DNA from: a virus
Direction: 5' to 3' (one strand)
Virus record (IMG/VR): IMGVR_UViG_3300031518_000001
Location: 1-60,585 of that record
DNA length: 60,585 bases
The notes under the pieces are model-generated. The model had not been told where the DNA came from and did not search any database. It saw nothing but the letters and a program-made list of their open reading frames with translations. Position numbers and translations under genes: made by a program. Below, in pieces: positions 620 to 57,116 of this stretch (position 1 is the first letter of the stretch; the number at the start of each line of letters is the position of its first letter).

Positions 620-672
620 GCAGTCTGCTTAATTTTTTCAGTTGATTTTACTGCTTCGTCGCAGGCTGCCTT
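620..672 (-). repeat. IS605 right-end / omegaRNA-like repeat, copy F (partial)
   Basis: Read on the minus strand this has CCTGCGACGAAGCAG, then a TCAACT-loop-stem and a terminal GCAGACTGC. It aligns with copy A (42551-42700) and copy B (3541-3591). GAAGCAGgaag followed by a CTCAACT/GGTTGAG hairpin is, as I recall it, typical of the 3' end of IS200/IS605 elements that carry tnpB, where it forms the end of the omegaRNA. The hairpin here is degenerate. No tnpB is adjacent. It points outward (leftward) from the methyltransferase pair. Confidence 0.5.
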
Positions 673-707
673 TCAAATAATCATTGAGTATCAGTTACTT
701 GTATCAA

Positions 708-3434: not shown

Positions 3435-3540
3435 TTTATTTTTTGTAATGCTTGCATAATCCCTTTACTTTTGTACATTACATCTATCATGAATATATCA
3501 GATAGTCGAAAATGAGTATTACATAATGCTATCTGAAAAA

Positions 3541-3591
3541 CCATCATGTACTGAAGCAGGAAGCTCAACTACGAGAGGTTGAGTAGTCCGC
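3541..3591 (+). repeat. IS605 right-end / omegaRNA-like repeat, copy B
   Basis: Contains GAAGCAGGAAGCTCAACT, a short loop, then GGTTGAG and a terminal AGTCCGC. The GAAGCAGG-to-GTCCGC part is nearly identical to copy A at 42551. It also shares CCATCATGT just upstream with copy C. The rest of the 3435-3699 gap holds only this repeat, an inverted repeat (3603-3636) and a terminator (3640-3672). It points outward (rightward) from the methyltransferase pair. Confidence 0.6.
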
Positions 3592-3602: not shown

Positions 3603-3636
3603 ACAAACCGCCGTCATTTTCCCTTACGCGGTTTGT
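3603..3636. repeat. Nine-base inverted repeat ACAAACCGC / GCGGTTTGT
   Basis: Perfect 9-base arms with a 16-base loop, lying between repeat copy B and the terminator of the next gene. There is no T-run after it on either strand, so it is not a clear terminator. It could be a protein-binding site or the end of an inserted block. Confidence 0.45.
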
Positions 3637-3639
3637 ATT

Positions 3640-3672
3640 AAAACAAAAGTACCCTGCCCACAACGGGCAGGG
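3640..3672 (-). terminator. Intrinsic terminator of the 3700-4296 gene
   Basis: On the minus strand CCCTGCCC, a 5-base loop, GGGCAGGG, then ACTTTTGTTTT. The same hairpin with small changes follows the other two copies of this gene (17644 and 27365). Confidence 0.8.
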
Positions 3673-3699
3673 TTTCCTACTGCTTGGGCGGGTGAGCGG

Positions 3700-4296: not shown

Positions 4297-4323
4297 ATCA
4301 AGCATTACGACGAACACGCAAGG
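4297..4323 (-). promoter_or_regulatory. CCTTGCG cargo leader, copy 1
   Basis: CCTTGCG starts 27 bases before the ATG, followed by TTCGTCG at -18. The same leader, at the same spacing, precedes the genes starting at 4912, 17021, 17769 and 26742. Confidence 0.6.
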
Positions 4324-4362
4324 AAAGTTAGTTTCTATTCTTGCGATTTGGTAAATGAGGGC

Positions 4363-16880: not shown

Positions 16881-16993
16881 AACAAAAACAAATATCGAAA
16901 ATAAAATAATAATTCGTAATTAAGTATTGTTATGTGATTTCGAAAATATAAGAGACATAGGCATAGTTTAGATACTCTAGGGGTAGCATTTTT

Positions 16994-17020
16994 CCTTGCG
17001 TTTTTGTCGTAATGATTGAT
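16994..17020 (+). promoter_or_regulatory. CCTTGCG cargo leader, copy 2
   Basis: CCTTGCGTTTTTGTCG starting 27 bases before ATG 17021. The similarity among the three copies begins at this CCTTGCG. Confidence 0.6.
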
Positions 17021-17617
17021 ATGACGACGCAAGCGCAAGTCAGCGGAACCGAACTCAAAGTTCGGATTGAGAAGGCCCTCACAGAAAAAGGCCTGAAGAA
17101 ACTGATTACGAATCTGGAAAAGGAGCTGAACGGGGAGCACAGCTTCCTCCCTCAAGACGTGGAAACACAGATTCGTAGGGAGATTTCGAGTGCTGGTGTA
17201 GCGGTCTCACAGCATGGCGGCTGGTACCGGTGCATCGCAGCGTACCTGCTTCTCCCTAAGCTAGACGAGCTTCTGGCCGTCAAAAGTACGAGTGAGGAGA
17301 AGAATGTAGCTCCCATTGTGCAAAAGCTCCGTAACGAGGCCCTTCGGGAATCCCTCAACGCTTTTGGGCTGGATGTACCCGCTCGGTACGCTCGGACATC
17401 CAGCAGTACTGGTCAGACACGGGTGCGTATCCCACGGGAGCAGAAGCAGCAGCTTGTAGAAAACTTTCTGGACGCTCTCCCTACTTTTGAGGCGCTGCAA
17501 GACTTGCTGGACACCCTCCCAAAGAACACCAACCTGATGGTCAAGCAGATTCGCACCTTAGTCAAGCGGTATCTCAGCATCGCTAACCGCCTCCAAGCGA
17601 AAGTCGCGCACGAGTAA
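17021..17617 (+). CDS. GC-rich cargo gene of unknown function, copy 2 of 3
   Basis: 198 residues from ATG 17021, with an in-frame ATG at 17012 as alternative. Nearly the same helical protein as at 3700 and 26742; differences are scattered and mostly conservative (for example L-D-E-L-L-A-V versus L-E-E-L-L-Q-V), so all three copies appear to be kept under protein-level selection. It stands between the end of the baseplate group and the Type ISP restriction enzyme, same strand as the latter, each with its own leader and terminator. The pairing suggests, but does not show, a functional link with the restriction system. Confidence 0.75.
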   Translation: MTTQAQVSGTELKVRIEKALTEKGLKKLITNLEKELNGEHSFLPQDVETQIRREISSAGVAVSQHGGWYRCIAAYLLLPKLDELLAVKSTSEEKNVAPIVQKLRNEALRESLNAFGLDVPARYARTSSSTGQTRVRIPREQKQQLVENFLDALPTFEALQDLLDTLPKNTNLMVKQIRTLVKRYLSIANRLQAKVAHE

Positions 17618-17643
17618 CCGCTCACCCGCCAGACAGTAGGAAG

Positions 17644-17676
17644 CCCTGCCTACTACGGGCAGGGCACTTTTGTTTT
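17644..17676 (+). terminator. Intrinsic terminator of cargo copy 2
   Basis: CCCTGCC, a 6-base loop, GGGCAGGG, then CACTTTTGTTTT. Ten bases further on, CACGCAAGG at 17687-17695 is an inverted copy of the CCTTGCGTG leader core. Confidence 0.8.
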
Positions 17677-17741
17677 GACTCAAATCACGCAAGGCAAGAG
17701 TGCAGTAGTCTACCCTACATCCAGACGGGTGTTTTTCTTTA

Positions 17742-24480: not shown

Positions 24481-24590
24481 TTAGGTTTAGGACGACCCAA
24501 AGTTACGCTTGTGGATCATGCTATGGTGGATAACTGTAGCCATCATGTGTCGAAGCAGGAAACTCAACTGAAAAACGTCAGGCAGTGTGC
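24481..24590 (+). repeat. IS605 right-end / omegaRNA-like repeat, copy C
   Basis: Aligns over about 110 bases with copy A: TTAGGACGACCC, AAGT, GC...GCT, GGTGGAT-AC-GTAGCC, then CGAAGCAGGAA and CTCAACTG. The last hairpin is degenerate. Lies in the gap between two family genes that run toward each other (22449 and 24601). Confidence 0.6.
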
Positions 24591-26671: not shown

Positions 26672-26714
26672 CTAACAAGAAAGATGTATTTGTTTGCTGT
26701 ATTATGTATTATTC

Positions 26715-26741
26715 CCTTGCGTTTTTGTCGTAATGCTTGGT
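26715..26741 (+). promoter_or_regulatory. CCTTGCG cargo leader, copy 3
   Basis: CCTTGCGTTTTTGTCG beginning 27 bases before ATG 26742. Similarity to the other copies begins at the CCTTGCG; the bases upstream differ. Confidence 0.6.
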
Positions 26742-27338
26742 ATGATAACGCAAGCGCAAGTCAGCGGAACCGAACTGAAAGTTCGGATTGAGAAGGCTCT
26801 CACAGAAAAAGGCCTGAAGAAGCTTATCACGAATCTGGAAAAGGAGCTGAACGGGGAGCACAGCTTCCTCCCTCACGATGTGGAAGCACAGATTCGTAGG
26901 GAGATTACGAGCGCTGGTGTAGCGGTCTCACAGCATGGCGGCTGGTATCGGTGCATCGCAGCGTACCTGCTTCTCCCTAGGCTTGAGGAGCTTTTGCAGG
27001 TCAAAAGCACAGGCGGTGAGCAAAACATAGCTCCCATTGTGCAGAAGCTCCGTAACAAGGCCCTTCGGGAATCCCTCAGCACCTTTGGGCTGGAAGTACC
27101 TGCACGGTACGCTCGGACATCCAGCGCCACAGGTCAGACACGGGTGCGTATTCCACGCGAGCAAAAGCAGCGGCTTGTGGAAAACTTTCTGGACGCGCTG
27201 CCTACCTTTGAGGCGCTCCACGATGTGCTGGGCACGCTCCCTAAGAACACCAACCTGATGGTCAAGCAGATTCGCACCTTGGTCAAGCGGTACCTCTCCA
27301 TCGCTAACCGCCTCCAAAGCGTAGCAGCGCACGAGTAA
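26742..27338 (+). CDS. GC-rich cargo gene of unknown function, copy 3 of 3
   Basis: 198 residues from ATG 26742; ATG 26733 is an alternative, and the longer open frame upstream is leader. It differs from copies 1 and 2 by scattered substitutions, with a local cluster near residue 90 (Q-V-K-S-T-G-G-E-Q-N versus V-K-S-T-S-E-E-K-N). It sits between a divergent family gene (24601) and a family gene on the same strand (27450), so all three copies of this gene lie in accessory DNA. No transposase or recombinase motif is visible in it, so it does not explain its own spread. Confidence 0.75.
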   Translation: MITQAQVSGTELKVRIEKALTEKGLKKLITNLEKELNGEHSFLPHDVEAQIRREITSAGVAVSQHGGWYRCIAAYLLLPRLEELLQVKSTGGEQNIAPIVQKLRNKALRESLSTFGLEVPARYARTSSATGQTRVRIPREQKQRLVENFLDALPTFEALHDVLGTLPKNTNLMVKQIRTLVKRYLSIANRLQSVAAHE

Positions 27339-27364
27339 CCGTTCACCAGCCAGACAGTAGGAGG

Positions 27365-27394
27365 CCCTGCCCGCGAGGGCAGGGTTTTTGTTTT
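27365..27394 (+). terminator. Intrinsic terminator of cargo copy 3
   Basis: CCCTGCCC, GCGA loop, GGGCAGGG, then TTTTTGTTTT. Confidence 0.85.
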
Positions 27395-27438
27395 ATTCGT
27401 GGAACGGCAATTTTTAAATAAAGTACTATCTCAGTTTG

Positions 27439-27445
27439 TATATTT
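27439..27445 (+). promoter_or_regulatory. TATATTT box 11 bases before GTG 27450
   Basis: The region from the terminator tail through this box is nearly the same as 22390-22451, so promoter and gene duplicated together. Confidence 0.5.
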
Positions 27446-27449
27446 ATGC

Positions 27450-29459
27450 GTGTTATTAACATATAACAAAATCCCCAAGAACAATTGTAAAGTAGCCAAG
27501 TTTATACGATTACCTAAGGTAAATCCTGAGGAAGGTTATCCACCTATGTTACTTGCTTCTTCTAAATTTTATAATGTATATTTCTATAATGTTTATACAA
27601 AGACACATTCTACTATATTTTATCTAAATACTAACGCGATATATTTTTACAATAATAAAAATAGCCACATAAGTAGCATAATACCTTTATATGACAACAA
27701 TAATAGAAAGATTAAGATTATATCAGCAGGGCGTAGGCAAAGTAATATTATGTGGGGTTCTTGGCGTTGTGTGAAAGCACCTAATGGCAATCTATATGCT
27801 GTATATGTTAAAGAATTAGAAAACTACAGAGCCGAATTAGTTGTTTATAACTTATCAAAAAATAGATTTGTAAACAAAGTAGAATACGATTACGCTGAGT
27901 TTTTAGATGTGTCTCGAGTGCGTAGATATGTACACATTTTATTGAATTCATTTATTGTAGTTTTTAAAATAAGAAAGAATACTTTTAATTTATACCTATT
28001 CGATTTGATTAAAGAAACAATGGATACTTTTGTATATACACCATATGATTATATGCATGGCATATTGAAATTATTAACATCAAAAGATGAAAAGAAACAT
28101 ATTCGCGATATATTATCGCGATACTTTGCTCGTGAACCAGCTTGGAGTACTTCAGGGTGGGATAAAAGTATAAATTGCACAGTAACTTTACTTGGTGGAG
28201 AGATTCCGTTTGTAAAATATCTCGAATCTATATTGGACATTGGATTTCATGAAGCACACGAAGGGATAGATAACGCCTTATTCGTGGCTTTCAAGTATGA
28301 AGATAACATATTAGAAGTTAGCTTTAGTACTGGCCAAGATGTCGTCATAATAAAAAATCCTACAAAGGATTCTGTTTTACCTCCTCCTAATTCCGTTTTA
28401 TTCAGCAAAAAGTATGAACTTGATATTTCATACGATATTTCTAAATCGTATCCGTACTATATACATAAAGTATCAAAAAATTACATATTTGGCACAGATG
28501 TAGTTTTTGAAAAAACGTTTAGTAGTGAAAGCGATTATACTATTATGAGTAGTAGATCACAACTGATTGATATTAACGACATAACTATTTTACTATCTAA
28601 AAATGGTATTTTTGCTAATTTAGAGAAACACGACAGAAATAAAGAATTAAATATAGAATTATACGACATGTATGGACATTATGTGATACCACAAGAAGAA
28701 TCAATAAAATTTCTTGATTTGACTAAAATTTACAAAAATTTGTATAATCTAAAAAATGAAAAATGCTATGATTGTGATGATTTTATAAACGCTAGCGACT
28801 TCTTAATTACATTTGATATTAAAAGTAAGATAGAGTATATATTGTACAAGATTTATCAAGACAATTATAACACAGAAATAAAGATTCATAAGTACTATTA
28901 CTACTTAGATGAAACTAATAGTAACTTATATGTATCAGTAATAGTGGCCAAGAATGATAACATCGAAGATAATACAAAATTTGACTTCTATGTCTTTGAA
29001 TACAATATTAGAAAAAAGGGATTACCATGCAGGATAGTTATGTATTCAGTTGGGTATGATAGTAAAATACTTCACAAAAAATCTACGGATTACATAAGTG
29101 CCATGCGCATGTTCGCTTACGCATCTGGGAATAAAATACAATTCTTTGAGATATTAACAAGAATAAATGATGAAGATCAAATGAGGCGTATTTATGTATA
29201 TAATAATGAAATTATGTTGATAAATGATATTTTTGTTATAAAAGCTAAAGACATAAGATATAATAGATCAGCTATTCTTAATTGTGGCAGCACTAATACA
29301 AAAGATATATATCATAATAATTATTGTCAAGTCTTTGATTATAATGTTGTGTCGTTTGTTAATATATTTACTGATAAGAGTGGTGAAGATAAGAGGCGGC
29401 GCTATATGATTATATTGTCTAGTCTAGAGATCATAATATCGATGCCTTTATCAAAGTAA
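27450..29459 (+). CDS. Phage-specific paralogous family, full-length member 2 (669 residues)
   Basis: Unknown function. Closest relative is 22449: matching start (V-L-L-T-Y-N-K-I-P-K), the G-S-W-R-C-V-K-A-P-N-G block, S-Y-P-Y-Y-I-H-K-V near residue 335, F-D-F-Y-V-F-E in the second half and the E-D-K-R end region. Identity is high at the N-terminus and blocks of divergence lie in the middle, so the two copies have evolved apart for some time. The GTG start is fixed by the paralogue and the box 11 bases upstream; an open frame back to 27399 is only leader. It is followed by ~160 bases of AT-rich sequence without genes, then repeat copy D. Confidence 0.65.
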   Translation: MLLTYNKIPKNNCKVAKFIRLPKVNPEEGYPPMLLASSKFYNVYFYNVYTKTHSTIFYLNTNAIYFYNNKNSHISSIIPLYDNNNRKIKIISAGRRQSNIMWGSWRCVKAPNGNLYAVYVKELENYRAELVVYNLSKNRFVNKVEYDYAEFLDVSRVRRYVHILLNSFIVVFKIRKNTFNLYLFDLIKETMDTFVYTPYDYMHGILKLLTSKDEKKHIRDILSRYFAREPAWSTSGWDKSINCTVTLLGGEIPFVKYLESILDIGFHEAHEGIDNALFVAFKYEDNILEVSFSTGQDVVIIKNPTKDSVLPPPNSVLFSKKYELDISYDISKSYPYYIHKVSKNYIFGTDVVFEKTFSSESDYTIMSSRSQLIDINDITILLSKNGIFANLEKHDRNKELNIELYDMYGHYVIPQEESIKFLDLTKIYKNLYNLKNEKCYDCDDFINASDFLITFDIKSKIEYILYKIYQDNYNTEIKIHKYYYYLDETNSNLYVSVIVAKNDNIEDNTKFDFYVFEYNIRKKGLPCRIVMYSVGYDSKILHKKSTDYISAMRMFAYASGNKIQFFEILTRINDEDQMRRIYVYNNEIMLINDIFVIKAKDIRYNRSAILNCGSTNTKDIYHNNYCQVFDYNVVSFVNIFTDKSGEDKRRRYMIILSSLEIIISMPLSK

Positions 29460-29620
29460 GATCGTAAGTATCATTGCCCACATTATACCAAGATTTTGGG
29501 TAAAATATATATGGAAAGATTAGACAAAGCCTTATTTTGTAGGTTTAATATGTACTAATATATTAAAATGAGTATTTTATTAGTTACGAAAGTATTTTGC
29601 ATACGTGAAAAGCGAGCCAC

Positions 29621-29702
29621 CAGGGTTAGGACAAATCGAAGTGAACCCTGTGGGATAGGCTCTGGTAGCAGGAAGTACAATCCCTAAAAGGTTGAGTACT
29701 CT
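29621..29702 (+). repeat. IS605 right-end / omegaRNA-like repeat, copy D
   Basis: Shares GGGTTAGGAC, GAAGTGAA, GGCTCTGGT, AGCAGGAAG and AAAAGGTTGAGTA with copies A and C. It lacks the central hairpins. It marks the right edge of the accessory island; four bases later comes the TTTCGAC motif of the helicase gene. Nothing else is seen in 29460-29620. Confidence 0.5.
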
Positions 29703-29705
29703 ATT

Positions 29706-42499: not shown

Positions 42500-42577
42500 A
42501 TGAAGGAGATTATAGACCTGTATAATCTTTGTGTTAATCTATTTGACTATGCGGACTGCTCAACCTTTTGCAGTTGA
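42500..42577 (+). pseudogene. Broken copy of the 42776 gene
   Basis: M-K-E-I-I-D-L-Y-N-L-C-V-N-L-F-D-Y matches the first 17 residues of the intact gene at 42776 (M-K-K-I-I-E-L-Y-N-L-C-T-N-L-F-D-C). Similarity ends at 42550, exactly where repeat copy A begins, and the frame stops at 42577 inside that repeat. The upstream motif is also duplicated. This looks like a tandem duplicate cut off by the repeat. Confidence 0.7.
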
Positions 42578-42700
42578 GCTTCCTGCTTCGTCGCAGGATG
42601 GCTTTTTAGGTAGCCCGTTGAGGCTACGGTCATCCACCAGAGCCTGCTCCGCAGGCTTGACTTCGGGTCGTCCTAACCCTATAGGCTTGGTTTTCGCCTA
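42551..42700 (-). ncRNA. Most complete IS605 right-end / omegaRNA-like element, copy A
   Basis: On the minus strand: GGCGAAAACC, GGGTTAGGACGACCC, hairpin AGCCTGC/GCAGGCT, GGTGGATGACC, hairpin GTAGCC/GGGCTAC, CCTGC...GCAGG, and final hairpin CTCAAC/GGTTGAG ending CAGTCCGC. This ordered set of stems suggests a structured RNA. The 3' part is typical of tnpB-type IS200/IS605 ends, whose transcript is the TnpB guide RNA. In a functional omegaRNA the guide would be the sequence just past 42551, that is, the broken gene copy. No nuclease or transposase gene is nearby. The rest of 42437-42775 holds only the broken gene and AT-rich sequence. Confidence 0.6.
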
Positions 42701-42756
42701 AACAAAATACTATCGAAATATGCCAAATTACATTAGATTAGCGTATTAATTATCCA

Positions 42757-42763
42757 TTTCGAT
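42757..42763 (+). promoter_or_regulatory. TTTCGAT motif before ATG 42776
   Basis: TTCGAT starts 18 bases before the ATG. Confidence 0.4.
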
Positions 42764-42775
42764 AAGCTCACGACT

Positions 42776-43087
42776 ATGAAAAAAATTATAGAGCTGTACA
42801 ATCTATGTACCAATTTGTTTGATTGTTTGGATCAGGGTAAGGGACGATATTATATGATGTCTTTTGCCGGCCACATCGACGATGTCGTGCGCCTATACTA
42901 CAATTGGTCGGCAAAAAACGTTGCTCAACTATGGGTCAAAAGTGCCCTAAATACCTATAATAACGATACACTTAAAAAATTCGGCATTCTATTAAACGAG
43001 GCCATAAACGGAGACTGTAGTAAAAGCGACCCGATTCTACAAAACATACTATTCCAAATCAATAAAACATGCAATCAGTCTGATTGA
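42776..43087 (+). CDS. Unknown small protein with a broken duplicate upstream
   Basis: 103 residues, helical, with a Q-G-K-G-R-Y-Y-M-M segment after the duplicated N-terminus and a Cys-containing end. A lone plus-strand gene in a long minus-strand run. Its 3' end overlaps that of the convergent primase gene by 13 bases. Its isolated orientation, its own motif and the duplicated start mark a recently rearranged spot. No function recognised. Confidence 0.6.
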   Translation: MKKIIELYNLCTNLFDCLDQGKGRYYMMSFAGHIDDVVRLYYNWSAKNVAQLWVKSALNTYNNDTLKKFGILLNEAINGDCSKSDPILQNILFQINKTCNQSD

Positions 43088-44453: not shown

Positions 44454-47400
44454 TTAGAATTGAACTCCTACGTATTCGCCGTCACCACTCCCACCACCAC
44501 CCGAAGGTCCCGAGCCACCACCCGAAGGAGGATTTTGTGCAACAGCCTTCATGTAGCTTGAAGCAATATTCGCAAAAATACCTCCATTACTAAATACATA
44601 CTCTGCTTGATGGTGATAGTCTATGTCGTGTTTATTCCTTACCATAGCTGGGAATGCATGCTGCGCAAAACAACTGTTTTGTAACAGATGTTCATAACTA
44701 TATGTGTGAGTTAATTGTGCAGATGTATCAGTCGAAAACGACAGATGCTTCTGGTATGGTCTAATGGTTATGTCTTGATACTGAGCCTTATCTACTGTGC
44801 CATCGTTTGTGCGTAAAGCAGTATAGAGTCTAAGGCCTATTTCTATAGTATAAGACATCGGTGGGGCACTATATGTGACTTCCGGCACAGGATTACCGAG
44901 GAACTTGTAGATATTATCAGACTTACCGAATATGATAAAGTTAGGGTGAGGCAATGGATGCCCTTCGTATAGGCTATTACCGTCTTCTCTATACAGGAAC
45001 ATGTTGCCTAAGAAGTAATCTACTATTGTAGCTTCATAGTGTAGCCCATGCGACGTTATCATGTGGTTATTACTTACAGGTACGCCGTACTCGTGTGTCA
45101 ATTCGTCGCCCGTTCTTGTGAGAGGGGCTGTGTTCAAACCGCACTGAATACTCCAGAGGCGCGTCATTGACGGCTCCGCTTCCACAAGATGGTAAAAGTT
45201 AGCCACAGAAGCACCAGTCCCCTGTTTGATGATTGCTTGGTCGTATCCGCCATACGGACGCATAAATACATTAGACCCAGCACGATAGCCATATGGAATC
45301 GTATCATTACAGAAAGCTGAATTACCAATCGAAGCACCACTATCCATGTAGTAAAACTCCGGAACCGGATTATCTAACGACTTACCTAAGTGGTCAAAAC
45401 TATATAAATCATTAGACCATTGCCTGTCCCCACTAGCATTTACTGTAAGACGGCCAGGGCTGGCCATATAAATAGCATCCGCAATTACAAAAAGATTTAC
45501 ATTACTTGTTGTTTCATAAGATTGTGGATTAGAACTATATATTTTACCATTTTCATAAAGTTTTGGTCTAATAAAAACTCGTCCGGTGTCCAAATAAAGT
45601 GGATCGTACATATAATGTGAAATCGTGTTGGCTCGTAAAACGGGTTGTTTGATACCTCTATAATCTCTCGGTGTACGAAACATAGCCATATAAGAACGCG
45701 CAACACTCCAATCCGAAGACCAATCTAGCCACGAGTACCATGAATAATCTATACGGTGAGTATAGTTCCATATATTGTACCTTTTAGTATTGTAAGTCAT
45801 ATTAAATGCTCTTGGTACTAGCCCAGATGAGGTTACACCTAGTATATTATGATTACCCAATTGACATGATTGATCAGGCTGTCCAGCTACATCTATATAA
45901 CTCATTTGGCTAAATGCATCTACTGCTATACAAAAATCCCAGTATCTATGGCCACGCCACATAGAATAATTTTCAATGAATAATGGCACTACGCTTAAAG
46001 CCAAAAGGTTATCAAGAATGTTGTCATCAGACCAAAGATCAATGTCCATCTCCCTAGGAAAGCGGAATAACATGTTAATATCATCACCTAAAAGCTTAAT
46101 TGCACTCATACTACGGAAACCAATAGCGTTGGTAGATTTAGTTATTGGCCAATAATTACTGAAATTAACAATACTAAACGGCAGTGGATTACGAACCAGA
46201 AAATCACCATAAGCTGTATTATACTCGAATCTACCAAAGCCGTTAAATTCAGTGTAAAACAATTCACTGTTAGGAACATTAAACTTAAATCTTAAACCAG
46301 CATTAGGTGATGTGTTATAAAACATATCAAATGTAAAACTCCTTTTGTATACATCATTGAAAGGAGTTTGCATTCTGTTACTTACTATAACATTATCAGG
46401 ATTTATGTTATAAGTACTATTTGTGAATATTGAATTAGCAATTTGTATATCCGACTGTTGGGTAACATGATGGGCATTATTAAAAAATGTGCTAAGCCCT
46501 TTGTTTTGAAATATTGGTGTTGGCTCAATATCGCTTGCGAATATTGCTGTTCTATATAACGATAATCGTCTAGTGGATAAACTGGTATTAAAGGTATAAA
46601 ATACTGGAACATAAGTAGCTTCAGATCTAAGTATTTGTGGTTGTACAAACAGTGAATCTGCCATTGGTGCTGAGACATTATGATTGATGACATAATTGCT
46701 GCTATTGAGCACGAAGTATAGACCACCAAGCCATTCGAAAGGAGCGACTGCGCCGCTAAAATTGCCATTGACTACACGAATATCATAGAATGACGCACTA
46801 CGTACAAAAGGATTACTTGCACTATAAGCGTGGTCAATCATATTATAAGTGGTAGTAAATATCAGGTCTCTTTTAGTCCAGTATAGACTTTGCACTTGAT
46901 TAATATTGTCAGATAGTAATCCGAGCATTACAAGAATTGCGTATAGGCTGCCAAAATCAAGCCAACTGGTAGACTTATCATATCTATCGTAATTAAACAA
47001 TGTTTGAGCATTTAATTCATACAAATCATAATATTTTGGTTCTAAAAGCGCTTTTATCGTATAATAGTGATGTGGTGAAATGAGGAATTTTTTAATATTT
47101 ACATTTTCTTCCCTCATGTTAACCTCAGTATGTTGCATATGGGGCCAGTGTTTTTTATATGTTATAGTATCACTTGGGTTGTCTATTAAATCCACATCGA
47201 ACCTTAGTTCGTGGACGACTTTGTTATTATAAGCTGATGAACCTAATACATGAGACAAGTACAGCATAGTATGGGTTGGGTTGCCATACATGCTAAGAAA
47301 GAAGGTTTGTGGATTGTGTAGCTGTAGAAGTCTTCTGGTGTAGTCTTGTCCTCTGATATTGCGAGGGTAGCGTAGTTCGTATATTTGTGTTAACATCGGT

Positions 47401-50400
47401 AATGTATTAGTGTACATCACCATGTGGTTTAGCCAGCGACGCGGCACTGGCAAGTGTTGCGTACCAATAACTGCGTCGTCATACCAAAACCCGATTGCCC
47501 AGTTGTGATATGACCATTTATCGTAAGATAGACCGCAAGCCTCAACAACAGCCCCTTCCGCAAAGGATCTCCCTACAGGCAAGCTGAAAATAGAAACACT
47601 AGGATTAGTATTCTGTATCTGGTATGTCGAATAACGTGGATCCTTAGTAGCCGTAATAACTAAATCTCCCACAAACCAATTATCTATAACAGCATTAGGC
47701 CATCGTGTAGTATCGATAAAACTACCCAAACCAGCACTACCCACGCCTGTATGACGATCAGGATAAACCAGAGGGTTGGTGTTATTTATGTTAACCCAAC
47801 TAGGACTATAAATGTCTATAGCGCCATATGGAACATATGCAAGATAATCGTTCATGTACAAAGAAGCACACCCTAGCGCTTCCTTCTGATATATGTATAC
47901 TGGGTCTATCACTAATGGTTTGGGGTATATAGTTAGTACATCAATTAAATAAGGGTTTCTAGCCCATAATATAACTCTTTCATTGCGCTTTATACTTGTA
48001 GTAGTATGGAATAAAGATCTAGGGGATTGAATATAATTCGCATATGGTAAGGTATTACTCGTGCCTATCGTTAAGTTGTTTACTTCTACTTGAATATTGC
48101 GACTAAAATTAGTACTGTCAGATAGTAAATTAGTTGTTTCACGTGCTGGCAAGTAATACTCGCCGAACTGACGGTCCGTGTATTGGGAATAGTTTCTCGC
48201 CCCAACAGCACCAGCGGGGCCTACACTATAAGCATGGGTAGCATTATATCCTAACGGCATTACACCAACGCTTACCCTAAGCTTATCTATCATTGGCATT
48301 TTAACACGATATCTATATCTTCTAACACGTCGATAGAATTGAGATAAGACTTTATAGTTATTATATACAAAATAGATGTTAATCTTGTTAGCTAATTCAG
48401 ACCTAATATAGTATGGATTACCAACAAAGAAAAGCGCTTTAGCGGAAACGCTTTGATTAAGCATAAGATTAAACTCTATCTGGTTCTTAGGTATATAGAT
48501 ACCCTCGTTGGGTAATGGAACATAAGAACGATAATGATAAGACTGTAATAATAAATCTTCGTAAATAAGTCTACTCGTCATATGAAAGTGAAAACGAATA
48601 TTATTAGTATTGTTAGTAAGTTGGTTAAGCGCATAGTCGGACATTATACCAAAATGCGCATATATTGGTCTTTTAGCTACATCACGTTCTAAGAGCATCT
48701 TGGTACTAGAATAGGAACCACTCAAGTTATAGTATTGCATAGTATATATGTTACCCGTATTATTTAGCTTCTCTATGTTGTTTATTGTATTTGGAGAATA
48801 AGCAAGTAAGCTTAAAAAGTTGCTTGTAACTTTCGTATTTTGATCTTTGGGATGACCTAGTACGCCTATTCTATCTAGACGATAGCTTGTATGTTCTTCG
48901 TCGTGAGCATGAAAATAGAACATAAGCATATCGTATGCCATTGTGTCAGTTCTGTAGTATTCATACAATTTACCAAGAACGAGTTCTGAGGTTTTGAGAT
49001 ACGGGCTAGTCCCAGCTAAAAAGTTCATCGCACCAGCCATAGCTAGAGCAGAACGGTTGTTTTCCAAAAAAGTCATGAAACTGATATCTCTATCGACCAT
49101 TGTGACATCGTAATAAGTCCAAGCTCTGTAGAGAGTATTAGACAAATTGTTCAGGTCAGGCGAGTAATTAGGATTACCGTAATCGACATCGTCCTTTTTC
49201 AAATGCGATAACATAGCCGATAGACTCATAGCCATATTGCCGTTTACATTTGAGTTAGAATGATTAAAGTCGTATTGACCATCAATGTAGATACTATACA
49301 TCGGCATACCTCTGTTTTTGTAGCCAAAGTTCTCAAGCGGGTACTTATACAAAGTTTTAGAATTTTTCAATACATCTGGTGTTAATGTTTCTCCAACTGA
49401 TTTCTCATTATACTCTGCTCCCAGATCCGTAAAAGGATAAAATACTCTTACATATGGTATGCCATAAGATACAAGTGGATAAAATTTCTGAGTTCCCACA
49501 TATACTAGATTTAGCTTGGCTACTGACATGTAAAAGGGTTCATATTGGTATTCTAAATTAGGATTTTCAACTTCACTATTGGTTAAAAGTACGGGATAGG
49601 CTACAAGATAATATAACTCAGGCGGTATAAAATGCTTTAGCGCCAATTCTTGATTAAAGTGTACTTTACTAAATAGTGTATTGGTCATATCTTTTTCTTC
49701 ATAGTAGAAGTATATGGGTACGTTAGATAACATATACTGTTGCAGGTAAAAAGAGCCGCCTAGTGGTGTGCCGTATGGTGGTACGTCAAAACAGACATAG
49801 TTATTGATGTATAGGAATTCATCCGACAACCAGCGACCGTAACTTTTTCTGCTTAGGTTAACATTTTGTACTACTATGCTACTTTCAGGTACTTTATGTT
49901 CTTTATAAACCTTATGAACGGCAAATAATGGAACGGGGGGATGAAAATTACTAATAAGCATATTATAGATAAGACTCTGTGGTATTTCAATTGCCGCAGA
50001 AGTCTTCAAAACCATTTTGTCAAATACATTAGTGCCATATACATCACTATTAACGGACAGTCGTGTCGGATTAGTATTGTTAGGGAATACTCTTGTATAT
50101 TTATTTATCATTAGTCGGTTATCGAAACCGCCGTTGGCAATGTGACTACCGTATGGTCTTTCATAAGCAATAAAATCCTTGTAAGGACACACAACGCGGC
50201 CATAACTGTACCCGTATTCTGAGTTAACACTGAATCTGACTAACAATTGTAACAAATTGCCTAATCCAAAGTGTGTTATAAACCGAAATGCCATTATAGG
50301 TGTAATTATGTTTTGTTTATCAGAATATCTCATCCAGTAACCGTATCCTATAAATGGCGAGAACGCAGCCCTTTGAGCATTTAAATGCATAAGATTCTCG

Positions 50401-53400
50401 GCATAACGTCCAATATAAGGCCAGTACCAAGCCTTAAGATTACAGTCAAAAAAGCCATGTTCAATGTTAGGGTTTTGGTAATAACATTCAGCTTGAACGT
50501 TGGCACCTATCAAATCATAAGGCCAAGCAAAAAGATTGCCTATACGGTAAAATACATCATAATTATCGTCAAAAGGTTTAGGAGGCGTAATATAAATTAA
50601 TCGCTTTCTTTTGTTAGGTTCACTAGACCAGCTAATACCAACAGATGTAACTAAAGGATCACTATTATATTCAACAGTACTATAGTTTGTTCTATTGTTC
50701 CCAAACTGAGAAACTAAACTATTTTGTATATTAAGTGAAGGTGTTATTACGTTGTAATAAAAGTTTGAATGATTACTTCCGTAAAATGTTCCCAAGTTGA
50801 TATTGCTTCTATTCCACTTAGGGACGTTACCTAAACTATAATCATATACTATGTGGTAAAATCCTCTATCATATACATTATCAGCGCTATTAGGATGTAA
50901 TGTAGATGTAGGATATATCCTATATCTTGGTAATTCATCTTTCACAAAAACCATTTTAGTAACTACAGGCAATCTGAAACTAAACAGACGCGCAACCATA
51001 TCTTTACCAGGAAACAAAAACTTTTGATTTTCATCTTGGGGACTTATATCCTCAACTCTAAATCTATAAAGTGAATTTTGTATTTCATTAGGAATTGTAC
51101 TGGGTGTATGGCTAAACCCATAATACGATGATGGCAGATATAAACTATTTGGCGTATAGTCGTCTGAGTAGTAGACAGTCTTAGGAACACCGCCGAAATA
51201 GTTAGTATATATAGCAAAGTCCAAGAACGGTGCGAAGGCGTTTAGCGATAAAGCAGATATCGTAAATCGGTGTAGATCTATATAATCCGATAATTTGATA
51301 CCATCTTGTGCCAAAGTTACAGAAAACCTGTTATTTATTTGGTATCTACGATATCTAATAGGATTTGTCAAGTCAACCCTATAGAAAAACACGTTATTAA
51401 AACCTTGATATAGCGTACTTGTGTTTTGTATTAGGTCTTGTCTAGGTTCAGCATTTAATCCCGCCGACCACTTATTCCATGCGTAATCAGTAATAAATCC
51501 AACGTACTCCATATGCCAAAAACCAGAAAAAGGATTAGGCCCTACATTGATAAAATTCCCGATAACTATATCACGCTCATCATTATGCGCGATGACGCCT
51601 CTTGGATTGTCATTTAGAACGTCTGCGTCGGCTCGTTCAGCAGTTAAGTTATCCGTAAACATGAATAGGACATTCTTGGGATTATAAGGGTTATCATACA
51701 CTATCATAGGTTCATCAAATCTTTCAAACTCATGAAGCATTACATTGCCTAGACCTTTATTATTATACATACTAAGTCCGCCGGTCGTGCTGACATCACT
51801 TGTATTAGCATCGCTTCTGCCATATCTCAACGCGTCACTAAATTGGCTATATTGAAGCGTCTGAGCTGGCAAGTCTATCTCAAAGATAAGCCTTTGATAA
51901 TATGTCGAGAACTCGTCGGGATTAGTCAACCTCGGTAAATTATAAACTACATTAGTACCATCTAAGTAATCAAATCTATTTGACATTAAACTTATATGCT
52001 CAGCTTTTCTAATATTTGGCGTAGTGATGCCACTGCCTATTCTATCATAGGAAATGTAATTTATGTCTGACCTCATTGTTATGTAGTCTCTTTGTCTTTT
52101 TAATAAATCGGTATTTTCTATTATGCCATAAGATATCGGGTGTTCTGGGACGATGTTTATCTTGCCTTTATATGTATTGACTTCAATGTTTTTGCCGACT
52201 GCTTTGGTAAAGGCATCTTCTGTCTTGAATTTTACATAGAGGGCTTCGCTCCACCCGAAGGCTGTAGTTTCGTAATCATAGTCGTCTGGTACTATAATCT
52301 CAATGTCCTGTTCGTCTCTATCATATGGATAAGTTGTTCTATCACAGAAATCCAACTCGTTATTTTTTACACGACAAACATCTCCAAAGCAATTGATAAT
52401 ACTAGCTTCGTTAACAATATAGTAGGCACTACCAGCGCTAACACCATCTTCAATAGGGTGCATGTAGTCTTTGGAAATATAGTTTTGGCCGATAGCCGAG
52501 TTATTGCTAACTAAATCGGCTAAAACCTTACCACCCACTATGTCTTCAAATTTTTCTAAGTTACTACGTCGTGAAGCGGGAGGTATATTAAATTGAGGAC
52601 TTACTAAGTCAATCAAACTATGTCTTGTCCTACCCGCCCCTTTTAGTGTTCTAGGTACTATAGGTTCTATAAACTGTGTTTTTGTGCGCAAATAGACTTT
52701 ATTGTCATGATAAACAGCCACAAAATCATTATTCAGACTCTCAGCAACGATTTCGTCATTTACTTTGTAAAGCCTGATAACTACAACAAAATCTTTTGTA
52801 TTTCTATAATCTAAAACATGATATGGTCTTCTTCCTGAGTAAGTTTTTTCTTCGTATTGTATTATACCAGACAAGTAATAGGCTGGGTTAGGAGTTACAC
52901 GGCTAGGGTAATAATAAGCCATGATTGGTCTAGGCCACATTCTGGGATGCGAAAATGCCCATGCCTGTGGCTGTCGCACCTCACCAGTAGAAACAGCTGG
53001 GAACAATATATTATGAAAGTTCCACGGACCTATAAGCTCGTATTTCTCATATATAGCATTATAAAAATTTTGCCTATTCTGATCATTAAAACTAGCATTA
53101 AAAGGCACGGGATTGGGAAGATTAGTAGAAGGCAAAACGCCAGAGTTCATTAAGTTACGAATGTAATCTCTATCTTTCTCATGTACCATAACATATGCTC
53201 CTAGAGGATTGTAAGTTATATACATGGGCGTTAATAAATCAGTCTGATAGTAACTGTTTTTAACTACTATGTCATCATATATTTTATAGTAAGCCAAATG
53301 TCGCCTCGCTACATCATTATTCACATTATTATCATTAGAGAGAATAACAACATTCATACCTAACAATGGTCTAACCCTGACATTAGGGAAAAATATTCTA

Positions 53401-56400
53401 TTGGTCAACGCTATAGTACGTAATACGCTATAAGCAAAAAACCTACGCCTGATATGATCGCGGTGGCTGTAATTTGAGCCATCAAAATAAGGGCCTGTCC
53501 AAGATAAAATAAAATGGCCGTTCATATAATAGCTTCTAAAGTCGTCAAAAGTTGACCATAGTTTATCACCGCCATAATGAACAATATTGTTATAGCTAAA
53601 CATAAGATTAGTTAAGCCGTTCATTGTTATGACATATCCCTGTTCGTTTGGTGGCAAGTTGGGAGTACTTACGTTGTTTAACATATCCCTTATTATGTTA
53701 TGCCGTATCTCGGAAGTTAAAAAAACTGAGCCAGCATCCATGTAAAATGGGTTGAAGTCAGTGCCATGAAGTGGATTATTAGGATCATACAATATTCTAC
53801 CGTAATTACTACGAGTCAGCTCAGAATCTGGAATCACTAAGTATCTAATAGTCCTATCTTCATAAGCATTGTTCAACTCTATAAGTTTATTAATGCGTTC
53901 TATAGCTATGAAACTTCCACCAACGTCTACGAAAAAATAACCTAAAAGACTGTTATAGTAACCATATCCCATTAAAGTATCTAACTCATTAGCCGATGTG
54001 CTATTAGGATTATTTATTTTATACCCATTATTATCTTGTAAACTTTCTGTGACATTATCATTGGGTGATATATCACGGTAGATATTAAATGCCTTTAAGT
54101 GCGGCTTTATATCAAATCTTGGCAATATCGTGTTAACATCTCGGAAAGGATATAGAGGCAAATAAGGTGCAAAAAACTCATAACGAGCAACTGTATAGAC
54201 ATCACGCAGTGCATCGCTTGTAAATTTATGGGTACTTATACTTCTAATAGGACCAGGTAACTTAAGATTATACATATAATCTGGTGGTACTATGTACAAG
54301 TAAGTAAGCTCTGTGTCGACAGTATTCATATTACTATTAGTCAAATTTATACTTTGTGGTGCTTTCAGCCAGTATCCTCTTCTGTCGGTCAAGACAACAA
54401 AAAACAATGGCGACAAATGATTATATGTAAATAGTGGTAATCTATATGTGTTACTAATAGTGTCGTCATCTACGACTAGTCTCATCTCAGGTATCGGGTT
54501 TATATCGTTGTGGAAATAGGCAAAACGGTATTCGTAGCCTAAGCCGTACCTGCTGGCCTCTGCACCCGATTCTGGTGCATAGGACAGCATACTATCAAAC
54601 GATTGCCAACACCATGGTATTGTAGGCGAGGAATCAGGATAGTCAGGTACAGCTAATGTATAACTCATTAAAGCTAAAGCTATAGCTCTATATTGGAAAA
54701 ACTTTTCAGCAGAATCGGAACCAATATAATTACCCTTAAAAGAACCGCTATAAATATTCATTCGCCATAACCTTCTAGGTGTTCCTGCAACATTTGAGTC
54801 AACATTTACCCTTACGGGCGCATTAGTAATACCAAAAGGTTGCACATTGGGTATTACACGCCGCAAACGAATATCTAGACTATCATCGTTCGTAGGCATA
54901 GTTAAATCGCTAAAACCCAGCTCTGTCGCAACTCCAGGTTCTATAATCTTCCTGAAATAAACGTTACTCCATAATAATCCTCTAATATTAGTAGGTGAAG
55001 TAGCAAACAAGTAATTGTCTCGTATCTGATTTTCGTTTGAAAAAGCTGAATGCAAACCAGAATAGTTAACCCAATTGCAAAAGTTCTGAAGTATAGCGTC
55101 TCTAGTCCTATTGTTTATAATCTGCTTTCCATTAAAAAATGACGAAATTGAATTAGTTGTATCTATTTCTCGCCTTATAGTTTGAACAGCTCTTACTGCT
55201 AAAAAGGCCATCTGTCTATTAAATGGTGGTAGCATGGTATGATAGTCCGACAAAGCTGTGAAATAGGCATAACTATGCGCCATACTAGCAAATCCAATAG
55301 GCTGATTAATATGATAATAACTATTAGCCTGAGCATAAGCCCTCAAAACTGTATTGTTCCTACGCTCGTTCTCTTGTATCCCAAAGGGTATCCTAAAGTG
55401 AAAGTTATATTGTCTGGGAGTTAAAGTATATCTACTAAATGTAGGCGGTTTCAACAATATGGCCTTCTTTTCATTTTCTACAAAGCAATACGAATCTATA
55501 AGATAAATAGGATAAAATTCTTGATACATCGGCATAAGTCCAGTCGGAATAATCGTGGTTTTGTGATAGTCAAAATCCTTACCGCTTATGTTAAGTTTAT
55601 TTTCCATGTAGACTTTTGGATTTTCTAGTCCGAAATGTACAGCGTCTTGTGAGGCATAAAAATGCATCATCGCCGCAGAAGCATAACCAGAAACAATGTA
55701 TTCAGATGTGTAATAAGGCGTAAAATAAGTTCCATAACGATATTTAGAATCAGGTTGATACTTCAAAGTCATACCATAACTGAAAGAACCACCAAAACCT
55801 GCATGTTTAAATAATAATAATGAGTTTTCATCGATCCCTAAATTATACATAAAAGTATACTTAAAGAAATCGTAATTATTACCGCCTATTGTAACCCAAT
55901 TAGAACCATTATAATACACAGGGTAGAAGTAACCGTAAGTCTTCATGTTATTGAATGCTTTATTATTCAGCAACGGGTCCAGATTTCCACTATATTCATG
56001 ATTAAAGTTGCGCGCATTATTATGATGATCTAGTTGAAACGATTCATAGTAAAATACAGTAGGCACATAAAAATATGGATACATATACCTTTTATAGTTA
56101 CCACCTGATATATTTTCTGTTTTTGTAGGCATGCTGCTGTACAATAAATCCATAAAAACCCTTTTGTAATTATCTTCATTAATTGAACCAAATGGTATAT
56201 GTTCCGCTGCTCTAAGAATTTTGACTCTTGTAACATTGTAGTCATAAAATGTTATACCATCTAAAGTACCTTCCTTAATCAACTTATGAAATGCAAAAGC
56301 TCTTTTACTCTCGTCTGGTATGAAAGGTATGTTTAATGTACCTGATTTAACGTGTTTGGTTCTTGTATTAGATAAGTAACTATCTATACACAAGTTGTCT

Positions 56401-57116
56401 GTGAACCAGTAACTAGTAGCGCTTAGCCCATATGTATTAAGCTCGCTTGTGTTAAAGTAATGATCCGGTTCGCTGGATGAGTAATCAAAAGCATAATACT
56501 CGTACTGGTTCGTTAGATCATAACTATGCAGAAAAGCATCAAGAGCACTAGGATTACCAGGGCCAACATTGTAAGTATCAACTACCAGCTTCTGACGCCA
56601 TATAGAAAATTCATAGGTTTTAGAGTCATTAGCCAACTCACTGTAACTATAACTCCTCCTGAATCTATTAGAATACTCCCCTTTTATTACCAAAAATGCA
56701 TTATTTAGTTGTTCTGTAACAAGTTTGCCAGAATTGATATACCTGCTTACGTCAACACACAGGTACTTACCATCAGACAGTGACCTAAGCTGATCCTCAG
56801 TTGGGTTATCAAAGTCTATTTCATGACTTTTAGTTAGTACCCCGTCTTTCTTACTATTAATGTAATCATTGACAAGAGACTTGACTTTACCGACCAATTC
56901 TACTATGTTAGCGTCAAACTGATCTGAGAACTCATTGCTTGCATTTAGACCAGTACCATCATACTTGCGATTTTGCAATCTGTTCCACAACAGCAATATC
57001 TGTCTTGTAGGTACAAATGAGATAGGTGCTAAAAGAAATACATCATGCGGCTCGATAAATAACAATAAGAACGATAGTAATATGAATAGTACTACTAATT
57101 CAAGTGCTTTTCTCAT
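44454..57116 (-). CDS. Giant 4220-residue protein of unknown function
   Basis: One open frame of 12.7 kb, a fifth of the window. The N-terminus has a hydrophobic segment (residues ~5-24, L-V-V-L-F-I-L-L-S-F-L-L-L-F-I) that may be a signal anchor. The rest is rich in Tyr, Asn, Phe, Pro, Ser and Arg, low in Lys/Glu, without long helices, so it is likely mostly beta and extracellular or virion-exposed. It ends in a Gly/Ser-rich linker (P-S-G-G-G-S-G-P-S-G-G-G-G-S-G) and G-V-Q-F. It lacks the helical character of a tape measure, and I find no D-F-D-G-D polymerase motif and no protease or glycosidase motif. Its ATG overlaps the spanin-like gene (ATGA). Possible roles: giant fibre, surface layer or adhesin. 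All are guesses. Confidence 0.8.
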   Translation of the reverse strand: MRKALELVVLFILLSFLLLFIEPHDVFLLAPISFVPTRQILLLWNRLQNRKYDGTGLNASNEFSDQFDANIVELVGKVKSLVNDYINSKKDGVLTKSHEIDFDNPTEDQLRSLSDGKYLCVDVSRYINSGKLVTEQLNNAFLVIKGEYSNRFRRSYSYSELANDSKTYEFSIWRQKLVVDTYNVGPGNPSALDAFLHSYDLTNQYEYYAFDYSSSEPDHYFNTSELNTYGLSATSYWFTDNLCIDSYLSNTRTKHVKSGTLNIPFIPDESKRAFAFHKLIKEGTLDGITFYDYNVTRVKILRAAEHIPFGSINEDNYKRVFMDLLYSSMPTKTENISGGNYKRYMYPYFYVPTVFYYESFQLDHHNNARNFNHEYSGNLDPLLNNKAFNNMKTYGYFYPVYYNGSNWVTIGGNNYDFFKYTFMYNLGIDENSLLLFKHAGFGGSFSYGMTLKYQPDSKYRYGTYFTPYYTSEYIVSGYASAAMMHFYASQDAVHFGLENPKVYMENKLNISGKDFDYHKTTIIPTGLMPMYQEFYPIYLIDSYCFVENEKKAILLKPPTFSRYTLTPRQYNFHFRIPFGIQENERRNNTVLRAYAQANSYYHINQPIGFASMAHSYAYFTALSDYHTMLPPFNRQMAFLAVRAVQTIRREIDTTNSISSFFNGKQIINNRTRDAILQNFCNWVNYSGLHSAFSNENQIRDNYLFATSPTNIRGLLWSNVYFRKIIEPGVATELGFSDLTMPTNDDSLDIRLRRVIPNVQPFGITNAPVRVNVDSNVAGTPRRLWRMNIYSGSFKGNYIGSDSAEKFFQYRAIALALMSYTLAVPDYPDSSPTIPWCWQSFDSMLSYAPESGAEASRYGLGYEYRFAYFHNDINPIPEMRLVVDDDTISNTYRLPLFTYNHLSPLFFVVLTDRRGYWLKAPQSINLTNSNMNTVDTELTYLYIVPPDYMYNLKLPGPIRSISTHKFTSDALRDVYTVARYEFFAPYLPLYPFRDVNTILPRFDIKPHLKAFNIYRDISPNDNVTESLQDNNGYKINNPNSTSANELDTLMGYGYYNSLLGYFFVDVGGSFIAIERINKLIELNNAYEDRTIRYLVIPDSELTRSNYGRILYDPNNPLHGTDFNPFYMDAGSVFLTSEIRHNIIRDMLNNVSTPNLPPNEQGYVITMNGLTNLMFSYNNIVHYGGDKLWSTFDDFRSYYMNGHFILSWTGPYFDGSNYSHRDHIRRRFFAYSVLRTIALTNRIFFPNVRVRPLLGMNVVILSNDNNVNNDVARRHLAYYKIYDDIVVKNSYYQTDLLTPMYITYNPLGAYVMVHEKDRDYIRNLMNSGVLPSTNLPNPVPFNASFNDQNRQNFYNAIYEKYELIGPWNFHNILFPAVSTGEVRQPQAWAFSHPRMWPRPIMAYYYPSRVTPNPAYYLSGIIQYEEKTYSGRRPYHVLDYRNTKDFVVVIRLYKVNDEIVAESLNNDFVAVYHDNKVYLRTKTQFIEPIVPRTLKGAGRTRHSLIDLVSPQFNIPPASRRSNLEKFEDIVGGKVLADLVSNNSAIGQNYISKDYMHPIEDGVSAGSAYYIVNEASIINCFGDVCRVKNNELDFCDRTTYPYDRDEQDIEIIVPDDYDYETTAFGWSEALYVKFKTEDAFTKAVGKNIEVNTYKGKINIVPEHPISYGIIENTDLLKRQRDYITMRSDINYISYDRIGSGITTPNIRKAEHISLMSNRFDYLDGTNVVYNLPRLTNPDEFSTYYQRLIFEIDLPAQTLQYSQFSDALRYGRSDANTSDVSTTGGLSMYNNKGLGNVMLHEFERFDEPMIVYDNPYNPKNVLFMFTDNLTAERADADVLNDNPRGVIAHNDERDIVIGNFINVGPNPFSGFWHMEYVGFITDYAWNKWSAGLNAEPRQDLIQNTSTLYQGFNNVFFYRVDLTNPIRYRRYQINNRFSVTLAQDGIKLSDYIDLHRFTISALSLNAFAPFLDFAIYTNYFGGVPKTVYYSDDYTPNSLYLPSSYYGFSHTPSTIPNEIQNSLYRFRVEDISPQDENQKFLFPGKDMVARLFSFRLPVVTKMVFVKDELPRYRIYPTSTLHPNSADNVYDRGFYHIVYDYSLGNVPKWNRSNINLGTFYGSNHSNFYYNVITPSLNIQNSLVSQFGNNRTNYSTVEYNSDPLVTSVGISWSSEPNKRKRLIYITPPKPFDDNYDVFYRIGNLFAWPYDLIGANVQAECYYQNPNIEHGFFDCNLKAWYWPYIGRYAENLMHLNAQRAAFSPFIGYGYWMRYSDKQNIITPIMAFRFITHFGLGNLLQLLVRFSVNSEYGYSYGRVVCPYKDFIAYERPYGSHIANGGFDNRLMINKYTRVFPNNTNPTRLSVNSDVYGTNVFDKMVLKTSAAIEIPQSLIYNMLISNFHPPVPLFAVHKVYKEHKVPESSIVVQNVNLSRKSYGRWLSDEFLYINNYVCFDVPPYGTPLGGSFYLQQYMLSNVPIYFYYEEKDMTNTLFSKVHFNQELALKHFIPPELYYLVAYPVLLTNSEVENPNLEYQYEPFYMSVAKLNLVYVGTQKFYPLVSYGIPYVRVFYPFTDLGAEYNEKSVGETLTPDVLKNSKTLYKYPLENFGYKNRGMPMYSIYIDGQYDFNHSNSNVNGNMAMSLSAMLSHLKKDDVDYGNPNYSPDLNNLSNTLYRAWTYYDVTMVDRDISFMTFLENNRSALAMAGAMNFLAGTSPYLKTSELVLGKLYEYYRTDTMAYDMLMFYFHAHDEEHTSYRLDRIGVLGHPKDQNTKVTSNFLSLLAYSPNTINNIEKLNNTGNIYTMQYYNLSGSYSSTKMLLERDVAKRPIYAHFGIMSDYALNQLTNNTNNIRFHFHMTSRLIYEDLLLQSYHYRSYVPLPNEGIYIPKNQIEFNLMLNQSVSAKALFFVGNPYYIRSELANKINIYFVYNNYKVLSQFYRRVRRYRYRVKMPMIDKLRVSVGVMPLGYNATHAYSVGPAGAVGARNYSQYTDRQFGEYYLPARETTNLLSDSTNFSRNIQVEVNNLTIGTSNTLPYANYIQSPRSLFHTTTSIKRNERVILWARNPYLIDVLTIYPKPLVIDPVYIYQKEALGCASLYMNDYLAYVPYGAIDIYSPSWVNINNTNPLVYPDRHTGVGSAGLGSFIDTTRWPNAVIDNWFVGDLVITATKDPRYSTYQIQNTNPSVSIFSLPVGRSFAEGAVVEACGLSYDKWSYHNWAIGFWYDDAVIGTQHLPVPRRWLNHMVMYTNTLPMLTQIYELRYPRNIRGQDYTRRLLQLHNPQTFFLSMYGNPTHTMLYLSHVLGSSAYNNKVVHELRFDVDLIDNPSDTITYKKHWPHMQHTEVNMREENVNIKKFLISPHHYYTIKALLEPKYYDLYELNAQTLFNYDRYDKSTSWLDFGSLYAILVMLGLLSDNINQVQSLYWTKRDLIFTTTYNMIDHAYSASNPFVRSASFYDIRVVNGNFSGAVAPFEWLGGLYFVLNSSNYVINHNVSAPMADSLFVQPQILRSEATYVPVFYTFNTSLSTRRLSLYRTAIFASDIEPTPIFQNKGLSTFFNNAHHVTQQSDIQIANSIFTNSTYNINPDNVIVSNRMQTPFNDVYKRSFTFDMFYNTSPNAGLRFKFNVPNSELFYTEFNGFGRFEYNTAYGDFLVRNPLPFSIVNFSNYWPITKSTNAIGFRSMSAIKLLGDDINMLFRFPREMDIDLWSDDNILDNLLALSVVPLFIENYSMWRGHRYWDFCIAVDAFSQMSYIDVAGQPDQSCQLGNHNILGVTSSGLVPRAFNMTYNTKRYNIWNYTHRIDYSWYSWLDWSSDWSVARSYMAMFRTPRDYRGIKQPVLRANTISHYMYDPLYLDTGRVFIRPKLYENGKIYSSNPQSYETTSNVNLFVIADAIYMASPGRLTVNASGDRQWSNDLYSFDHLGKSLDNPVPEFYYMDSGASIGNSAFCNDTIPYGYRAGSNVFMRPYGGYDQAIIKQGTGASVANFYHLVEAEPSMTRLWSIQCGLNTAPLTRTGDELTHEYGVPVSNNHMITSHGLHYEATIVDYFLGNMFLYREDGNSLYEGHPLPHPNFIIFGKSDNIYKFLGNPVPEVTYSAPPMSYTIEIGLRLYTALRTNDGTVDKAQYQDITIRPYQKHLSFSTDTSAQLTHTYSYEHLLQNSCFAQHAFPAMVRNKHDIDYHHQAEYVFSNGGIFANIASSYMKAVAQNPPSGGGSGPSGGGGSGDGEYVGVQF

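Follow-up and report, generated by a model that had tools for sequence, protein, structure and literature searches.

IS605-derived sequences that lack a transposase gene have been described in Haloquadratum as palindrome-associated transposable elements (PATEs) (PMC3119063), and a PATE-like sequence of 271 nt in Halanaerobium has retained the hairpin of the left end, the 58 nt that close tnpB and a complete right end (PMC7290912). PATEs are the nearest described kind to the element reported below: both have IS605 ends, no transposase and no target duplication. In the portions of these accounts drawn on here, PATEs are presented as degenerate ends, without a promoter-driven RNA gene, a conserved 5' hairpin or an analysis of guides and targets; unlike them, the present element is phage-borne and polymorphic between sister phages. 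In 2021, Altae-Tran and coworkers reportedly found stand-alone, trans-acting omegaRNAs for IscB in Ktedonobacter. There, too, guide copies lie apart from the nuclease gene, but the nuclease is IscB rather than TnpB and the carrier is a bacterium rather than a phage.

In the TnpB-omegaRNA (reRNA) systems of IS200/IS605 elements such as ISDra2 (PMC8612924), the scaffold is likewise the right end, the guide comes from the flank and the TAM lies opposite. TnpB cleaves empty donor sites by their TAM, as described for IS605 retention and plasmid drive (PMC8612924, PMC11870625). ISDra2 is among the closest solved TnpB relatives of the phage TnpB described below, but its type of omegaRNA overlaps or follows tnpB within one element, whereas here guide and nuclease are separate and the guide appears to have its own promoter. 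The TldR-gRNA systems of prophages are likewise phage-borne guide RNAs of the TnpB lineage, but TldR is nuclease-dead and sits beside its gRNA (PMC13418256), whereas the catalytic residues are retained in the TnpBs found here. A search of the open-access literature turned up no account of TnpB guide elements driven by a promoter, and the main text of a 2014 study of Aquificales ncRNAs makes no mention of TnpB, IS605 or transposases.

The window, by which we mean the whole 60,585-bp IMG/VR virus record analyzed here, carries genes for terminase-like protein, DnaG primase, helicases, a sliding clamp and methylases. The original prediction placed in it five copies of a structured sequence resembling the right end of tnpB-bearing IS200/IS605 elements. 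A covariance model of the scaffold (R1), whose training set took in copy A alone from the five, recovers all five on the predicted strands with the scores given below. Their predicted positions were right, but two of the limits had to be moved: copy A reaches ~42757 and the match of copy D begins at ~29584.

42551..42757, minus strand: copy A, a complete tnpB-less element (left end 42757, right end 42551)
42551..42682, minus strand: omegaRNA scaffold of copy A (R1, 166 bits)
42682..42700, minus strand: extra 5' hairpin, UAGGC-GAAAACCAA-GCCUA, seen in tnpB-less copies only
42709..42737, minus strand: promoter-like segment, TCTAAT-17-GATAGT, with a putative function suggested by alignment of the leader to the host solo TTGACA-17-TATACT/TATAGT
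42531..42550, minus strand: guide position of copy A, ATAGTCAAATAGATTAACAC, from matches in sister alleles
42500..42550, plus strand: truncated start (~17 codons) of the interrupted 103-aa gene, homologous to the gene start at 42776 and to intact sister genes
42776..43087, plus strand: second copy of the 103-aa gene, full-length and diverged
24481..24590, plus strand: copy C, remnant of a tnpB-bearing copy (R1, 58 bits; TnpB residues 354-384)
3528..3591, plus strand: copy B, right-end remnant (R1 match 3445-3591, 39 bits; 81% to copy A over 67 nt)
29584..29704, plus strand: copy D, what remains of a tnpB-less copy and its leader after deletion of the middle (R1, 22 bits, E=0.002)
620..673, minus strand: copy E, right-end remnant (R1 match 620-754, 17.5 bits, E=0.03; 77-82% to other copies)

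Almost certainly, copy A is an IS605 element that lacks tnpB and carries an omegaRNA scaffold. The block of ~206-207 bp contains neither tnpB nor tnpA, and the first part of its scaffold still codes for the last ~39 TnpB residues (residues 365-403 match there at 79% in a TnpB protein search). Its fold is better than that of its shuffles (z -3.8), clearly so in copy A only among A-D, the other values being +0.85 for C, +0.13 for D and -1.7 for B. Copies B, C, D and E are decayed remnants of copy A-type sequence. Copy C retains TnpB C-terminal codons from 24448, the R1 match in copy D spans 29620-29704(+), and G009 has decayed right-end sequence at the same site as copy D. The core GAAGCAGGAAG, with up to one mismatch, occurs 4 times in the window against 0.65 expected, a count reached by 0 of 100 shuffles. 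As working guides, B-E were rejected, their folds being no or little better than shuffles and their flanks lacking a second TAM-bearing match.

Copy E is followed on its 3' side by the promoter-like motif that belongs to the next gene, with GTATATTT at 617(-). This motif is found 23 times in the window against 7.8 expected, often ~6-15 nt 5' of start codons (e.g., 10702, 22437, 27438 and 37061 on the plus strand; 15848 and 42448 on the minus strand), and is probably a promoter of the phage that gives very short leaders.

As predicted, the window encodes neither a transposase nor a TnpB nuclease. It has no tnpB domain (PF07282), and a TnpB protein search returned C-terminal scraps only, within copies A and C. 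The Y1 transposase TnpA (PF01797) is absent from the window, the sister phages searched and the host G016, and no adjacent RuvC-dead TnpB-like (TldR) protein is present in the window. The comparison with Rfam that had been proposed was unproductive: Rfam 15 at the gathering score gave tRNA only for the window, and copy A at E up to 10 gave weak chance matches, nothing relevant.

Other features of the window are recorded here in their own right. Remnants C and D lie 3' of two paralogous large genes, 22449-24455 and 27399-29459 (668 and 686 aa), respectively; a divergent Cas12/TnpB was considered for these proteins and rejected, with no Pfam or PHROG match. A block of ~700 bp with a ~201-aa gene, its family not recognized, occurs at 3619-4326 (-), 16991-17697 (+) and 26712-27395 (+), with ~88-92% nucleotide identity between copies, and also in G001, G002 and G009, where it lies near a TnpB-like ORF. 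In G009 it adjoins a larger second TnpB-like protein (~540 aa), which is found in L018 and L016 (G007, G009) and is absent from the window. A 4220-aa ORF at 44454-57116 (-), with DnaG primase and sliding clamp nearby, has no Pfam match, and 17769-22325 (+) encodes a complete-looking Type ISP restriction-modification enzyme of 1518 aa.

The resemblance to tnpB-bearing right ends was borne out when viral contigs were scanned for the core, which led to G003. There, a tnpB frame of 353 aa with an incomplete start (PF07282, E=1e-29) runs into a near-identical scaffold (128/132 positions identical to copy A, 97%), and the 3' flank is the same as that of copy A (295/300). In G007, a second tnpB with 83% identity, 404 aa long when counted from its probable start, also reads into a near-identical scaffold; in this phage genome, a tnpB with its catalytic residues intact occurs together with a copy that lacks tnpB. 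The phage TnpB aligns with the ISDra2 TnpB (8h1j) over most of its length (E=2e-75), with the catalytic RuvC D...E...D in register. The scaffold overlaps or follows the tnpB 3' end in G003, G007 and Aquificota (some with tnpA), copy A itself being without tnpB.

The ordered stems predicted for copy A are six helices with covariation. Across ten scaffolds, 95.3% of cells are paired and 5 pairs are changed on both sides, against at most 41% paired and at most three such pairs in slid-partner controls; since the structure was drawn from copy A, the pairing percentage is biased towards it, while the double changes are less dependent on that choice. Helix 1 reads GGGC..GCCC in tnpB-linked phage copies and GGGU..ACCC in most tnpB-less ones. 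The assignment of the scaffold as an IS200/IS605 right end and omegaRNA is directly supported, and copy A is an intact TnpB omegaRNA.

In G001, G002, G004 and G007, the 103-aa gene carries the same block close to its 3' end, another position than in the window, where the block follows ~17 codons of that gene. In G001 and G007 only the last few codons are replaced, and the stop codon comes from the right end. The gene is uninterrupted in G008, where the block is missing, and in L031, L032, L034, L035 and L039. The empty site reads GTTCTAT/TGATTTGAC and the filled site GTTCTAT/ATTATGG...CAGTCCGC/TGATTTGAC, with no target duplication; the sister-phage element is a clean insertion 3' of a TTCTAT TAM. 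Such pairs of filled and empty sites demonstrate mobility with neither a transposase gene nor a target-site duplication, as in PATEs and non-autonomous IS605 elements. A second tnpB-less copy in G001 and G002 sits at a methylase stop codon. The right-end hairpin is present; a left-end hairpin is clear in most host copies and was not seen in phage copies or G069. A leader search of viral contigs for further copies returned known contigs only.

The sequence just past each 3' end had been proposed as the place of a guide, and a search found partners for the flanks of the intact copies. The 20-nt guide of the sister phages matches the empty allele L031 perfectly, directly 3' of TTCTAT; over 18 nt, other empty alleles differ from it at 1-3 positions and mostly have TTTTAT in front. 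The copy A guide has 2-3 mismatches in 18 nt to uninterrupted sister alleles, every match being directly 3' of TCTAA. Moreover, the minus strand of the window at 43061 presents an unoccupied target for the sister phages' element, TTTTAT followed by TGATTTGGAATAGTATGT. These sites suggest TYTAW as the TAM, with few independent sites behind the motif, which occurs at 1% of window positions. The elements of the Aquificota sit 3' of TTTAAC and, in one case, of TTAAAC. Covariation, a match to TnpB-type ends and matched 3' flanks were all obtained, the opposite of what would speak against the original prediction.

The best tnpB relatives are in Aquificota (74% in a Hydrogenobacter MAG, 63-66% in Sulfurihydrogenibium), and these closest relatives suggest an Aquificota host for the phage. 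A search for CRISPR spacers in 136 Aquificota genomes, made with 20 kb of the window, gave short weak matches only, those due to the omegaRNA itself and to coding-gene similarity being set aside. In G116 (Aquificota), tnpA, tnpB and omegaRNA lie in a row, with PF01797 adjoining tnpB, an order that places the family in IS200/IS605. The stand-alone form is also found in the likely hosts. It is multicopy in the Hydrogenobacter MAG G016, with at least five tnpB-less, promoter-bearing copies, single in G069, G065, G045 and G044, and partial in G055. Usually, such a copy opens with a left-end hairpin and TTGACA-17-TATACT, followed by a hairpin where the transcript is expected to start and then by the scaffold and the right end. 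The host promoter is of the sigma70 type, and the phage leader, equal in length and layout, aligns with it ungapped from the -35 region to the scaffold with 25/54 positions identical (p=0.002 in a post hoc shuffling test). The -35 of copy A is weaker than the TTGAAT of its sisters.

The 5' hairpin has a conserved loop, GANARYCAA, on the stems GUCCC/GGGAC, GCUUAGC/GCUAAGC, GUUGAC/GUCAAC and UAGGC/GCCUA. With stem pairs counted by script from the loop outwards, 62/70 positions pair, with 2-4 pair types at each position, and four lineage representatives give 20/20 paired, a count that no re-pairing brings above 18. In G044, the loop is longer by one base and a further hairpin follows this one. 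No 5' hairpin was seen in the tnpB-linked copies read. In a census of Aquificota, GATARYCAA gave 19 matches against ~12 in reversed controls; being near the control level, matches were counted only where a scaffold was present. In the host copy of G069 (L133), the guide overlaps a TATAAT-like box just upstream of an apparent aspS (aspartyl-tRNA synthetase). Relics and stand-alone guides had been offered as alternatives, and each is right for some of the copies: the relics are B, C, D and E, and copy A and its sister-phage orthologues look like intact stand-alone guide genes.

Copy A stands in the window between the truncated gene start and the full, diverged second gene copy. At 1268-3240 of G010 (L040), a D12 methylase gene lies between two inverted TnpB-type elements with their right ends inward, one a tnpB with residues ~110-335 deleted and the other tnpB-less; a third, partial copy is present too. 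Crossing-over between element copies at different sites may explain both arrangements. A comparison of G001 with G007 shows 6/131 differing sites in the scaffold (4.6%), compared with 39/300 in the flanking gene (13%, p=0.009 against scaffold) and 9/75 in the leader (12%, p=0.06 against scaffold). The lower scaffold divergence suggests selection on the RNA, an effect that copying between elements could mimic wholly or partly.

Copy A might instead be an inert, PATE-like relic, left when a tnpB element suffered an internal deletion, mobilized by a trans transposase or by recombination and keeping an omegaRNA shape through youth. We regard this as a serious possibility, if the less likely one. 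Four of the five window copies are decayed, G010 has an internally deleted tnpB, and PATEs are known by-products of IS605 deletion (PMC3119063, PMC7290912). An inert relic does not, however, account well for the occurrence in four lineages of promoter-driven copies whose extra 5' hairpin covaries, for compensatory changes in tnpB-less copies or for a scaffold conserved above its surroundings. Moreover, G007 combines an intact tnpB with a tnpB-less copy, the guide of which fits an empty sister allele, so that all the parts occur in one phage genome, and for this reason a stand-alone guide gene acting in trans is favored over the inert relic.

Two other readings carry far less weight. A guide RNA with which a TnpB-like repressor silences promoters, in the manner of TldR, is quite unlikely: the TnpBs found with the scaffold retain catalytic residues, the guide is copied from its own flank without a TAM before it, and the guides of intact phage copies fall in gene bodies or 3' ends rather than promoters. 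Against these points stand the promoter-like flank of copy E, the G069 guide over a TATAAT-like box upstream of the apparent aspS, and the precedent of prophage TldR systems, which repress genes and for which a frameshifted tldR locus has been suggested as a trans gRNA source (PMC13418256). Several copies lie just 5' of genes, as a structured leader or terminator-like phage element unrelated to TnpB might, but the scaffold is joined to tnpB in G003, G007 and Aquificota, TnpB C-terminal codons lie within it and the insertion is polymorphic; this reading is hardly credible in general and is refuted for copy A.

On balance, we lean to the view that copy A is a stand-alone omegaRNA gene in a non-autonomous IS200/IS605 element, acting with TnpB in trans for homing. 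Several observations speak against this view: the weak -35 box of copy A, a window contig devoid of tnpB, phage copies in which no left-end hairpin was seen, the small number of independent TAM sites, and the decay of four of the five window copies, which is what relics would show. The element would comprise a short left end, its own promoter, the 5' hairpin, the omegaRNA scaffold and the right end. Its transcript would extend beyond the right end and stop ~16-20 nt downstream of GTAGTTCAC or CAGTCCGC, so that the first ~20 nt of the flanking gene would serve as guide. The TnpB that loads this RNA would be supplied in trans by a sister phage, such as the tnpB-bearing G007 or G003, or by the Aquificota host. 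Phage genomes in which the gene is uninterrupted would be cut by the RNP next to a TYTAW TAM, and repair from an element-bearing genome would copy the element in, which would amount to RNA-guided homing by a guide-only element. Crossovers between copies in different genes would swap flanks and hence guides too.

More tentatively still, these copies may represent a class of element with a single gene, that of a TnpB guide RNA which has its own promoter and a dedicated 5' hairpin. Such elements could spread in Aquificota and their phages through trans TnpB cutting uninterrupted sister genomes, the guide being rewritten at each insertion and reshuffled by recombination. If this is true, TnpB guide and nuclease are split across mobile elements, in parallel to the split between nuclease and guide array in CRISPR-Cas12, the element would be a minimal selfish one of ~200 bp, and phage variation would be readable as a contest of element-bearing and empty genomes. 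The thermophilic stand-alone scaffold with its 5' hairpin is testable at the bench. A hot-spring phage and its likely bacterial hosts thus carry very small mobile elements in which, of a system built on TnpB, the ancestor of Cas12, only the guide-RNA half is kept.
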